DNA from: Vulcanimicrobiia bacterium
Lineage (GTDB): Bacteria > Vulcanimicrobiota > Vulcanimicrobiia > Vulcanimicrobiales > Vulcanimicrobiaceae
Reading direction: 5' to 3'
NCBI GenBank assembly: GCA_025934645.1
Contig: JAICWY010000007.1
Location: forward strand, 1-64,000
DNA length: 64,000 nucleotides
Part shown: piece after piece, positions 56,000-61,152 of the stretch
Numbering within the stretch: the stretch's first letter is position 1
Layout of the letters: the number at the start of each line of letters is the position of its first letter
The notes under the pieces: model-generated
What the model was told of the DNA's origin: nothing
What the model saw: only the letters and a program-made list of their open reading frames with translations
Database searches by the model: none
Made by a program: the position numbers and the translations under genes

Positions 56000-58075
56000 T
56001 TACCTCGAGCTTCGGAGTGAGATGCCTGCGTTGGTGGGGTTCTGTCCCGGCGGCGGACCGCTCGGGTGTTTTTCCTTCGCCGGATCGTCCGTGTAATCCA
56101 GATAGATCAGGCCCATGAAGATCTCGAGTGCTTCGGCGTGCATGCCCTTCGCGTTCGCAACGTCGATGACCCCGCGGTGCGACTCGTGCGCTTCGCGGAT
56201 GATGTCTTGCGGCGAGGTGCGCAGATCGGCGGCCACGATCGAGGCGGCCGTCAGATCGCCCGGCGCGACGTTGTCGTGCAGCATGTCGATGTACGAGAGA
56301 TCGTCCACGTTCCAGCGCACGTTGATCGCTTTTTGCAGTGTCGAATAGCGCTGCGGCGAGGTGCCGACGCCGAGCATGGTGATCCGCGCCGAGAGCTGAC
56401 GCGCGCGGGCCATGTTGTACAGCTGATTCGCCTGCGATGCGGAGACGGCGGCTTGTCCCAGTGAGGCTTGCGCTTTCTGCATGTACGGAACGAGTGCGTT
56501 GTAATCGATCTCCGAGATGTCGTTGAAGTAGTTCAACTGCACTTGTCCCAGCCGCTTGATGAACGCGTCGAGATCGCCCAGACCTTCGTCGAGTTGCATT
56601 GCCGAAGCGCGTCCGGCATCGACCGCCCGCACCATGTCACCGTCGGCCTGCGAGAGCTGCGAGAGCATCTCGGGATAAGACGGAAAGACTGCGACCGAAT
56701 CCGACGGGATCGGCGAGGTCTTGAGCGGCGCCTGCATCTCCGAGAGAATCGCGGCGTTTTCTGCCAGCAGGCCGTTGGGTTTGTTCGTGCGCGGATCGAC
56801 TGTGCCGACTTGCTCGATCGCGGCGGTCATGTTCTGCAGCGCGCTGTTCACCGAACGGGACATGCCCGAAAGGCTGCGCTGCACCGCTTCGAGGCGCGAT
56901 CCGTGCTTGACTTCGATGCGGCTGAAATCCGGAAGCTCGTAGCTGATCGTGTCGAGCCGCTGTTTGAGCGAGTTCAGCTGGCTGTGCCCCTGATCGTGGC
57001 GCGCGCCGATTTGCGCTTGCGCCTGATTCTGCACGTCTTGCGCGGCCTTCATCTTCTGGTCGAGCGCCGTGAGATTGGGGTGGGTCAAATCGACTTTGCG
57101 CACTTCCATGGCGCGCAACGCCTCGATACGCTGTTGCGCGGCGGCTTTGACTTGGGGTGAAGAGCTCTGTGCGAGCTCGCCCAGCGTCTGCGCGCTCTTG
57201 TTCGTAAGTCCGAGCGCCAGCTGCGCTTGGCCCAGGCCCAGCAGCGCCTGCGGATTGTTGGGATCTTTCTTCAGGATATCGGTGAGCTCGATGCCCGCGA
57301 CGTTGTACCGCGCTTCGTCCAGATCGTGAAGGGCCCAAACCAGGCGTTCTTGCGAAGTGGTCTTGGTCGGATCCAGTTCGGAATAGCCCAGCAAGTGCGA
57401 AACGCGCGCGCCGGAGCCGGGGTGGTCTTGAAAGTACTTCGTCACCAGATCGTTGTGCTCGCCCTCCAGCGCGCCCAGATGCTGTTGCATCGTGAGCATC
57501 GCTTCGGGGTCGAAGCCGCCGCGCGACATCAGAAGCAAGCCGTACTGGTCGGCTTGCAGTTCGTCGGTGCGCGAGATCTTCGCGAGGGCGCCCGCTTGCA
57601 GAATATTTCCGAAGTTGTAGATGAACGGCGAGAACAGCGAAGCAATTCCGAAGAGCAGATTGAGCAGCTGCGATTTATTCTGCATCGTCACTGCGTGCCG
57701 GCGCTCGATATGTCCCGTTTCGTGGCCGATGACGCCGGCCAGTTCGTCGTCGGACTGCACGAAGTCGAGCAGTCCCTCGTTCACGTAGACGAAACCGCCC
57801 AGTGTCGAGAACGCGTTGATGTCGTCCTCGTTCAAAATTTTGATGCTATAAGGAACGTCCTTACGCGCGGTTTGCGCCCAGAGCTTGCTTGAAACGCTCT
57901 GCACCCACTGATTGAGCAGCGGGTCGGTTTCCACGACGCTGCTCTCGACGATCTGCTGATCGTACGCGCGGCCCATCTCCACTTCGCTCTGCGTCGAGAG
58001 CGCCAGCGCCGGAGACGGACAGATCGCGCCGAGCAGTGAAACGATGACGGCGATCGGGATGATGCGACGAAGCAT
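56000..58075 (-). CDS. M48-family metalloprotease (BepA-like) with long C-terminal extension
   Basis: GVIGHETGHIERRHAVTMQNKSQ zinc motif; signal peptide; TPR-like region. Confidence 0.88.
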   Translation of the reverse strand: MLRRIIPIAVIVSLLGAICPSPALALSTQSEVEMGRAYDQQIVESSVVETDPLLNQWVQSVSSKLWAQTARKDVPYSIKILNEDDINAFSTLGGFVYVNEGLLDFVQSDDELAGVIGHETGHIERRHAVTMQNKSQLLNLLFGIASLFSPFIYNFGNILQAGALAKISRTDELQADQYGLLLMSRGGFDPEAMLTMQQHLGALEGEHNDLVTKYFQDHPGSGARVSHLLGYSELDPTKTTSQERLVWALHDLDEARYNVAGIELTDILKKDPNNPQALLGLGQAQLALGLTNKSAQTLGELAQSSSPQVKAAAQQRIEALRAMEVRKVDLTHPNLTALDQKMKAAQDVQNQAQAQIGARHDQGHSQLNSLKQRLDTISYELPDFSRIEVKHGSRLEAVQRSLSGMSRSVNSALQNMTAAIEQVGTVDPRTNKPNGLLAENAAILSEMQAPLKTSPIPSDSVAVFPSYPEMLSQLSQADGDMVRAVDAGRASAMQLDEGLGDLDAFIKRLGQVQLNYFNDISEIDYNALVPYMQKAQASLGQAAVSASQANQLYNMARARQLSARITMLGVGTSPQRYSTLQKAINVRWNVDDLSYIDMLHDNVAPGDLTAASIVAADLRTSPQDIIREAHESHRGVIDVANAKGMHAEALEIFMGLIYLDYTDDPAKEKHPSGPPPGQNPTNAGISLRSSR

Positions 58076-58176
58076 AACGGTCAATCTTCCTTACCCGCCC
58101 AAGCGGGCCGGTGTTACACGGAGCACCCATAACAACGTGGGCGGCTCCCTCTATGTTACCTAAAATGTGTACGATA

Positions 58177-58240: not shown

Positions 58241-59098
58241 GTGAAGCGCGCCTCGACGATGGCGGTATTGCGCGGCAAAGGCCTGGGTTTGGAGATCGCG
58301 CTGGGAGGATGCGATTTCGAGGACGCTCTGGCCGAACTGCAAGGCAAGCTCGACGAGCGGCCGGGATTTTATTCCGGCACGCCGGCCACCGCTGCGCTCG
58401 GCGCGGGCAGCATCTCGGAAGAGCAGCTCTCGCGCTTGCGCGGCGTCCTCGACGAACACGGTATCGCCCTCGACGGGCTAAGCGGCGGACTTCATCTCGA
58501 ACCGCTCGCGCAGGCCGGCGGGTTGCGGTTCACGCCCGTTGCGGACGATGGCGGCGAGGAGCTTGCGCGGCGGCGCGCGCTGCGTCCGAAACGCGAAGTG
58601 CAACTTTCGGACGCGGCGCGGTCTCTCGTCGCCGACTTTGCGGGAGCGCGGTCCGACATCGCCGATCGCCGCCGGCGCGGCGAGGCGAGCGTACGCCGGG
58701 TTACTTCCGCGGAAGCGCGTAAGCCGGAAACACCGCCGCCCGCGCCGGCTCCGGCGGGACCGAGCACGCTCTACCACACCGGTACGCTGCGCGGCGGCCA
58801 AGCGCTGCATCATGCCGGCAACATCGTGGTCATCGGCGACGTAAATCCGGGCGCGGAATTAATCGCGACGGGCGACATCGTCGTGTTCGGCGCGTTGCGC
58901 GGCGTGGCGCACGCCGGCGCACAAGGCGATGCGCAAGCGCGCGTGCACGCGATCGAACTTGCGCCGACGCAACTGCGCATCTCCACGTTTATCGCGGCCG
59001 ATGCGGGAGATCGCAAACAAACGCCGATACATCCAGAAACGGCGCGCGTTCAAAACGATCGCATCGTCATTTTTCCACGGGAGAGCACCAAAGCATGA
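58241..59098 (+). CDS. minC: Septum site-determining protein MinC
   Basis: C-terminal VVIGDVNPGAELIATGDIVVFGALRGVAHAGAQGD. Confidence 0.93.
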   Translation: MKRASTMAVLRGKGLGLEIALGGCDFEDALAELQGKLDERPGFYSGTPATAALGAGSISEEQLSRLRGVLDEHGIALDGLSGGLHLEPLAQAGGLRFTPVADDGGEELARRRALRPKREVQLSDAARSLVADFAGARSDIADRRRRGEASVRRVTSAEARKPETPPPAPAPAGPSTLYHTGTLRGGQALHHAGNIVVIGDVNPGAELIATGDIVVFGALRGVAHAGAQGDAQARVHAIELAPTQLRISTFIAADAGDRKQTPIHPETARVQNDRIVIFPRESTKA

Positions 59099-59886
59099 GC
59101 GCTCGCAAGATCGTCTTTACCTCGGGCAAAGGCGGCGTCGGCAAAACCACCACCACGGTGAACGTCGGCGCGGCGCTGGCCAAACGCGGACATCGCGTCA
59201 TTTTGGTCGACGCCGATATCGGGCTGCGCAATCTGGATCTCGTGCTCGGATTGGAAAAGCGCATCGTGTTCGATATCGTCGAAGTCGTGGAAGAACGCTG
59301 CCAGCTGCGCCAGGCATTGATCAAAGACAAACGCTTTGAATCGCTCTCGATTCTGCCGGCCGCGCAAACGCGCGACAAAGACGCCGTTACCGAAGATCAG
59401 ATGCGCAAAGTCATGGACGATCTGGCGGAGATGGCGGATTACGTGTTGATCGATTGCCCGGCGGGCATCGAAGGCGGTTTCCGGAACGCGATCGCCGGCG
59501 CAAGCGAAGCGGTCGTCGTGACGACGCCCGAGGTGAGCGCGATTCGCGACGCCGATCGGGTGATCGGAAAACTGAGCGATCGCAGCCTGCCGATGCGCCT
59601 CATCGTCAACCGGATCCGCCCTGAAATGGTGCGCACCGGCGACATGCTTTCGGTCGACGACGTCTGTGAAATCCTTTCCGCCGAATTGCTGGGCATCGTG
59701 CCCGACGACGAAGAGATTATCGACACCACGAACAGAGGCGAGCCCGTCGTGCTCGACGAGACGACGCGACTGCGCGTGATCTACGACAAAATCGCGCGCC
59801 GCCTCGAAGGCGAGCTCGTACCCTTCACCAATCTCGACACCACCGGATTCTTCGGACGCCTTTTCGGCGCGCTGAAAGCAGGCTAA
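59095..59886 (+). CDS. minD: Septum site-determining ATPase MinD (copy 1)
   Basis: SGKGGVGKTTTTVNVGAALAKRG; GLRNLDLVLGLE; amphipathic C-term GFFGRLFGALKAG. Confidence 0.95.
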   Translation: MSARKIVFTSGKGGVGKTTTTVNVGAALAKRGHRVILVDADIGLRNLDLVLGLEKRIVFDIVEVVEERCQLRQALIKDKRFESLSILPAAQTRDKDAVTEDQMRKVMDDLAEMADYVLIDCPAGIEGGFRNAIAGASEAVVVTTPEVSAIRDADRVIGKLSDRSLPMRLIVNRIRPEMVRTGDMLSVDDVCEILSAELLGIVPDDEEIIDTTNRGEPVVLDETTRLRVIYDKIARRLEGELVPFTNLDTTGFFGRLFGALKAG

Positions 59887-59887
59887 C

Positions 59888-60721
59888 ATGCATCAACTCA
59901 AGTCCGACGCGCAGCCGGCGCCCGTCTCCCTGGGACGCGCAATCGTCATTACTTCCGGCAAGGGCGGCGTCGGCAAAACGACGACGACGGCGAATCTGGG
60001 CACGGCGCTCGCGCGCCGCGGCGCAAGCGTCGCCCTGGTAGACGCAGATGTCGGCCTGCGAAATCTCGACATTGTGCTCGGCCTGGAGAGCCGGGTAAAG
60101 CACCACGTGCTCGACGTGCTCGAAGAGCAGGTCACGCTCGACGAAGCGCTGGTGCGCGACAAAAATTCGCCGACGCTGCATTTGCTTGCGGCGGCGCAGA
60201 CGCGCGAGAAAGACGACGTCGACACGGACAAGATGCGCGCGCTGGTGCAAAAACTTCGCGAGCGGTTCGAATACGTGCTGATCGACTGCCCCGCCGGGAT
60301 CGAGATGGGCTTCAAGAACGCCGTCGCGGGCGCGCAGGAAGCGATCGTCGTGTGCACGCCGGAAGTCTCCGCCGTTCGCGACGTCGATCGGGTTGTCGGT
60401 TTGCTCGGCAATGCGTTCTCGCCGCAGCTGATCATCAATCGCGTGCGTCCGCAACTCGTGAAGAAAGGCAAGATGCTTTCGGTCGAGGATGTGAACTCGA
60501 TCCTACGCTTGCCGCTGCTCGGAGTAATCGCCGACGAACCCGACGTCATCGTCTCGACGAACAAAGGCGAACCGCTCGCGCTGCGTTCGGATTCGCGCAC
60601 GGCGGCCGCCTATCACGCGATTGCCGCTCGCGTCGCCGGTGAAGACGTGCCCGCGCCGACGGTCACGCAAAAGGAATCGTTGATGGATCGGCTGGGAGCC
60701 CTGTTCGGAGGTCGCCGCTAA
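59888..60721 (+). CDS. minD: Septum site-determining ATPase MinD (copy 2)
   Basis: SGKGGVGKTTTTANLGTALARRG; GLRNLDIVLGLE; C-term SLMDRLGALFGGRR. Confidence 0.95.
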   Translation: MHQLKSDAQPAPVSLGRAIVITSGKGGVGKTTTTANLGTALARRGASVALVDADVGLRNLDIVLGLESRVKHHVLDVLEEQVTLDEALVRDKNSPTLHLLAAAQTREKDDVDTDKMRALVQKLRERFEYVLIDCPAGIEMGFKNAVAGAQEAIVVCTPEVSAVRDVDRVVGLLGNAFSPQLIINRVRPQLVKKGKMLSVEDVNSILRLPLLGVIADEPDVIVSTNKGEPLALRSDSRTAAAYHAIAARVAGEDVPAPTVTQKESLMDRLGALFGGRR

Positions 60722-60725
60722 CCAC

Positions 60726-61085
60726 ATGGTCGAGTTTTTCAACCGTATTTTCGGCCGTCAAAACTCCGGTGCGACCGCGAAGGAGCGGCTGCGCCTGGTG
60801 CTCATGTCCGATCATCTCTCGCTCGCGCCGGAAATGATCGAGGCGATGAAGCGCGATCTGCTGGACGTCATTTCGAAATACGTGCAGCTCGATCGCGATA
60901 AAGTCGACGTGCACTTCGAGAACCAGGACGACGCCTTGGCAATGCTCGCAAACATTCCGATCACCGGCGTCAACCGCAACAGCGGCCCGAAGGACGACTC
61001 CGGCACGGGCTCCACGCCTCCGCAATCCGGCTCGACGTCAAAGAAAAAGCGCAAGTCGACGAACACCCCCGCGGCTGCGACCTAA
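60726..61085 (+). CDS. minE: Cell division topological specificity factor MinE
   Basis: FFNRIFGRQNSGATAKERLRLVLMSDH; MKRDLLDVISKYVQLDRDKVDVHFE. Confidence 0.93.
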   Translation: MVEFFNRIFGRQNSGATAKERLRLVLMSDHLSLAPEMIEAMKRDLLDVISKYVQLDRDKVDVHFENQDDALAMLANIPITGVNRNSGPKDDSGTGSTPPQSGSTSKKKRKSTNTPAAAT

Positions 61086-61116: not shown

Positions 61117-61152
61117 ACGCGCTCCGTCTGCCCACGGAGCGCGTTTTTTTTA
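61117..61152 (+). terminator. Rho-independent terminator of the min operon
   Basis: ACGCGCTCCGT-CTGCCC-ACGGAGCGCGT followed by TTTTTTT. Confidence 0.95.

Follow-up and report, generated by a model that had tools for sequence, protein, structure and literature searches.

We report a min operon that carries two consecutive, diverged minD genes in the order minC-minD1-minD2-minE, an arrangement that recurs across a bacterial class. The operon occupies positions 58241-61085 of the window, the 64,000-nucleotide stretch of DNA analyzed here, which comes from a Candidatus Eremiobacterota (Vulcanimicrobiota, WPS-2) genome (2.64 Mb, 84.8% complete; the window is on contig 45). In Min systems, MinD-ATP dimers bind the membrane through a C-terminal helix and recruit MinC, and MinE releases them. 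With a probability of about 0.65, we consider that the operon encodes one Min system for positioning of the division site, in which two specialized MinD ATPases, denoted D1 and D2, have one MinC and one MinE in common. Both MinDs are fully equipped, and only one copy of each partner accompanies them; the simplest reading is therefore a single pattern-forming system in which two MinD species take part.

With minC, minD and minE in one locus, the window contains a MinCDE system (Table 1). The four genes have the same direction and nearly touch: the minC stop codon overlaps the minD1 start, minD1 and minD2 are separated by 1 nt (median of 5 nt across the loci of the class), and minD2 and minE by 4 nt. 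A strong terminator-like hairpin closes the operon, with rodA next downstream. Upstream of minC is a divergent gene for an M48 peptidase with a BepA-like N-terminal part (positions 56000-58084); this gene adjoins minC across the class but not in the loci of other classes. The open reading frames of the two MinDs lie exactly where an earlier, sequence-only reading of this DNA had placed them, and the motifs and tails that it quoted are correct.

Table 1. Features of the min operon in the window
Feature	Positions	Strand	Description	Profile match
minC	58241..59098	+	N-terminal MinC domain and C-terminal beta-helix domain	PF05209 31.6 bits, PF03775 104.8 bits
minD1 (D1)	59095..59886	+	MinD ATPase, 263 aa, deviant Walker A, short predicted C-terminal helix	TIGR01968 370.8 bits
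minD2 (D2)	59888..60721	+	Second MinD ATPase, 277 aa, short predicted C-terminal helix	TIGR01968 354.6 bits
minE	60726..61085	+	N-terminal membrane helix, anti-MinCD segment, dimerisation domain, basic C-terminal tail	PF03776 76.8 bits, TIGR01215 80 bits
Terminator-like hairpin	61117..61144	+	11 pairs, T run; consensus match only	

Bacterial MinDs were identified by a whole-protein score above the curated TIGR01968 cut-off of 212.9 bits, which both D1 and D2 exceed by a wide margin. The two proteins of the window are 54% identical to each other, and D1 shows 80-85% identity to its closest named relatives, most of them from Candidatus Eremiobacterota. The AlphaFold2 monomer models (mean pLDDT of 88.2 for D1 and 88.7 for D2) have MinDs as their nearest PDB structures (6riq, 3r9j, 4v02 and 3q9l for D1; 6riq, 4v02, 3r9j and 3q9l for D2). 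FlhG/FleN and ParA/Soj belong to the same ATPase superfamily, but D1 and D2 reach far higher scores as MinDs, and their structural neighbors are MinDs too. The tails of both proteins combine a moderate hydrophobic moment with a predicted helix, modeled at low pLDDT, and these C-terminal helices are putative amphipathic membrane-targeting elements.

The phyletic spread of the pair was assessed in a survey that covered, for each other genome of the phylum, a single region surrounding its best MinD. The order C-D1-D2, nearly always followed by E, was found in 106 of the 107 class loci (106 genomes, one with two operons), and the sole locus lacking D2 is a 3.2 kb contig that ends just past D1. Together with the window and four genomes in which a profile search recovered D1 and D2 pieces, the tandem pair is present in 110 of 117 class genomes, including a single-contig one (G118). 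In the seven remaining genomes, the locus is missing or incomplete, and none has a demonstrable lone MinD. The cluster is present only in part in two of these (G034 and G069), whereas minC, minD and minE are all absent together from the other five (G022, G047, G049, G067 and G100), so the absence looks like missing contigs. One bin (G097) contains two complete minC-D1-D2-E operons on two contigs (L173 and L174), perhaps two strains binned together.

The possibility that the pair is an artefact, that is, a mis-assembly or a tandem in which one copy is decaying, can draw on the five genomes that lack the entire locus and on an apparent frameshift that splits minD2 in G060 (locus L139; also L055), the only retrieved class locus with a visibly broken minD2. 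We regard it as negligible: the pair recurs across the class, in many independent assemblies, the five empty genomes lack all three min genes at once as missing contigs would give, and the dN/dS values of both copies are well below 1. The sequence-only reading had proposed tandem, divergent MinD paralogs in one operon, and had allowed that a duplication confined to one assembly, or pseudogene-like decay of one copy in relatives, would speak against it; the pair proves to be lineage-wide, apparently functional and, in both copies, under purifying selection.

Outside the class, single MinDs prevail. The order is C-D-E in each of the 13 other-class loci of the phylum that were examined, and a search with the D2 profile gave exactly one MinD in all 22 other-class genomes where it detected any. 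Beyond the phylum, no tandem minD was found in 20 Bacillota loci or in the 371 records of a plasmid collection that gave a MinD-like match, always at a single place. One MinD per system is the usual condition, not a strict definition, of MinCDE; the class has two, and the rest of the phylum one.

In a maximum-likelihood tree, D1 and D2 form separate clades (support of 100/98 and 100/99, respectively) with the same first splits: a distant family, then a second family, then the family of the window. These matching splits of fully supported clades imply that the pair predates the ancestor of the class. Approximately unbiased (AU) tests reject neither a sister relationship of D1 and D2 (p 0.32) nor the alternative in which D1 groups with the phylum's single MinDs (p 0.40); D2 may thus have originated by duplication within the lineage or by early acquisition.

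Within one genome, D1 and D2 are 50.6-61% identical (mean 56.7), and orthologs average 73% identity for D1 and 69% for D2. Median pairwise dN/dS is 0.205 for D1, 0.273 for D2, 0.43 for MinC and 0.40 for MinE, rough values given the high synonymous divergence in these pairs; D2 evolves faster than D1. No sign of gene conversion between the two genes was seen across the class. Simple dosage redundancy, with interchangeable MinDs and no division of labor, would be compatible with the retention of all catalytic residues in both copies, but appears quite improbable for proteins of the same genome that are only about 57% identical, differ at many fixed paralog-specific positions and show neither gene conversion nor loss. 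Because neither copy has been seen to be lost across the class, each presumably does something that the other cannot.

We analyzed residue conservation in 107 D1 and 105 D2 sequences, numbered as in E. coli MinD through alignment with 3q9l, 6riq and 4v03. K11, K16, D38, D40, R44, E53, D120, D152, M193 and N222 are present in 100% of both sets, and N45, D154 and D198 in 96-100%. Thus, both proteins have the deviant Walker A motif with the signature lysine, the switch residues and the catalytic aspartates that characterize MinD, and the residues for ATP binding and for catalysis across the dimer are kept in both copies, as are, for the most part, those for contact with MinE and MinC. These conserved residues would allow homodimers and heterodimers equally. 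Mixed D1-D2 dimers are chemically possible, given that D1 and D2 agree in the signature lysine and the switch residues.

Separate D1 and D2 homodimers could compete for MinE as two coupled oscillators, in which MinC is carried by D1 and the main role of D2 is to tune the pattern or to serve as a sink for MinE. The complete active site and short predicted C-terminal helix of each copy would suit such an arrangement, and the divergence at residue 159 and at residues 56-62 could bar mixed dimers or alter the affinity for MinC. The Walker A and switch I residues, however, are identical in D1 and D2, and a heterodimer would predict a shared operon and strict co-retention just as well, so we consider this arrangement rather unlikely. 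An obligate D1-D2 heteromer is a similarly tentative proposal: its ATP-sandwich dimer would be asymmetric, with MinC recruited on one side and the other side tuned to MinE. If true, this would be a naturally asymmetric Min oscillator.

The partners of the two MinDs are not duplicated. Among class genomes with a match, 103 of 108 have one match to MinE and 107 of 110 have one match to MinC (MinC_C); the exceptions are fragments, the two operons of G097, and single additional copies of MinE and of MinC located on other contigs. Because nearly every class genome has one of each, the two MinDs share MinC and MinE, and the separate MinC and MinE partners suggested in the sequence-only reading, taken as duplicated copies, are not supported. 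D2 could have a separate partner outside the operon.

In E. coli, S148, D154 and I159 of MinD are named in a review as a shared contact for the RSGQ motif of MinC and for the contact helix of MinE (PMC6803595). D154 is found in 98-100% of both D1 and D2, and S148 in 97% of D1 and 82% of D2. Residue 159 of D1 is Lys in the order of the window and Met in the other family of the class, whereas in D2 it is always Leu, as in nearly all single MinDs of the phylum. The MinC motif differs between the same two groups: residues 184-187 of the window's MinC (58790-58801) read RGGQ instead of RSGQ, as do 89 of the 90 MinCs of its order, and the other family has RSGQ. Few differences between these groups are fixed, among them five in D1, including position 159, and MinE also differs at residue 30 (R30/H30). 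On the branch leading to the order of the window, K159 of D1, the change from RSGQ to RGGQ in MinC and that from R30 to His in MinE became fixed or nearly so, while residue 159 of D2 stayed Leu. Because D1 residue 159 and the MinC motif changed on the same branch and D2 residue 159 did not, these substitutions hint that D1 is the main MinC partner. The co-change was seen on one tree branch, and one genome (G035) breaks the pattern. A firm claim of D1-MinC co-evolution is weakened by clostridial MinDs with K159, which are mostly paired with an RSGQ MinC.

MinE has an Arg/Lys-rich C-terminal tail, possibly for contact with the membrane or DNA. At least six K/R in a 10-residue stretch past residue 75 were found in 96 of 100 class MinEs and in 13 of 13 other-class MinEs of the phylum (class and other-class loci L117-L236). 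The window's MinE has five in this stretch and clostridial MinEs have 2-4; shuffled sequences reach at least six in about 4% of cases.

Paralog-specific residues mark both copies. Asp 219, Leu 235 and Arg 244 are near-fixed in D1. In D2, Leu 61 is near-fixed, a class-specific His replaces Asp at residue 59 in 99% of the sequences, and residue 57 is mostly basic (R/K), compared with Val in D1 and other MinDs. D2 also has an N-terminal extension of ~13 residues before the first strand (positions 59888-59932 in the window), which is absent from D1 and other MinDs; it is poorly conserved and, in relatives, often Ala/Pro-rich. Its faster evolution, its own fixed changes (H59 and R/K57) and this extension might indicate that D2 was recruited to place cargo other than the Z-ring, such as pili or photosynthetic intracytoplasmic membranes, sharing only MinE with D1; in Haloferax volcanii, MinD2 modulates cell shape and motility (PMC11588486). 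Such a role seems improbable, as D2 is never found outside the minC-minE operon, which holds no further conserved partner gene.

Under the preferred reading of one Min system with two specialized MinDs, the second minD would have arisen or been acquired beside the first at a time preceding the last common ancestor of the class (Eremiobacteriia/Vulcanimicrobiia), and the two would have been retained from then on. D1 and D2 would each bind ATP and dimerize, most likely as D1-D2 heterodimers, either alongside homodimers or in their place, and their C-terminal helices would insert in the membrane. MinC would be carried mainly through D1, the shared MinE would release both D1 and D2, and one pattern would result, its period or length scale set by the mix of D1 and D2. 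The dimer composition, the preference of D1 for MinC, the oscillation and the division of labor are all inferred.

In the Min oscillator as studied to date, all interactions fall to one MinD homodimer. A class that has retained two diverged MinDs next to one MinC and one MinE amounts to a natural experiment: the two ATPases may have divided MinC binding, the response to MinE and membrane affinity between them. In these little-studied soil and polar bacteria, the division site is probably placed by a two-MinD version of the Min system. The question can already be addressed, as purified Min proteins lend themselves well to study and one member of the class is in culture. This member, Vulcanimicrobium alpinum, grows as rods and filaments with a width of 0.5-0.7 um and lengths of up to 92 um (PMC9758169).

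We found no description of a tandem minD in a min operon in the open-access literature searched. For duplicated minD, only the Haloferax MinDs were retrieved, and for Eremiobacterota with MinD, nothing relevant. We conclude that the class operon is a variant of the MinCDE system, with a two-MinD arrangement for which no published mention was found. Haloferax volcanii (PMC11588486, PMC11621097) provides a likeness, with several MinD homologs per cell in separate roles, but these are archaeal proteins studied for shape and motility, whereas D1 and D2 are bacterial MinDs within a complete min operon. In other classes of the phylum and in Clostridium (loci L097-L116), minC-minD-minE operons have the same gene neighbors as that of the window, and their MinDs are 53-65% identical to D1, but each encodes one MinD only. 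With the MinCDE system of E. coli and other Gram-negative bacteria, the class operon has in common the three families, the minC-minD-minE order, the ATPase and switch residues, most of the MinE/MinC contact residues, and a C-terminal helix, here predicted, on MinD; it differs in its two diverged MinDs, in the RGGQ motif of the window's MinC in place of RSGQ, and in the basic C-terminal tail of MinE.
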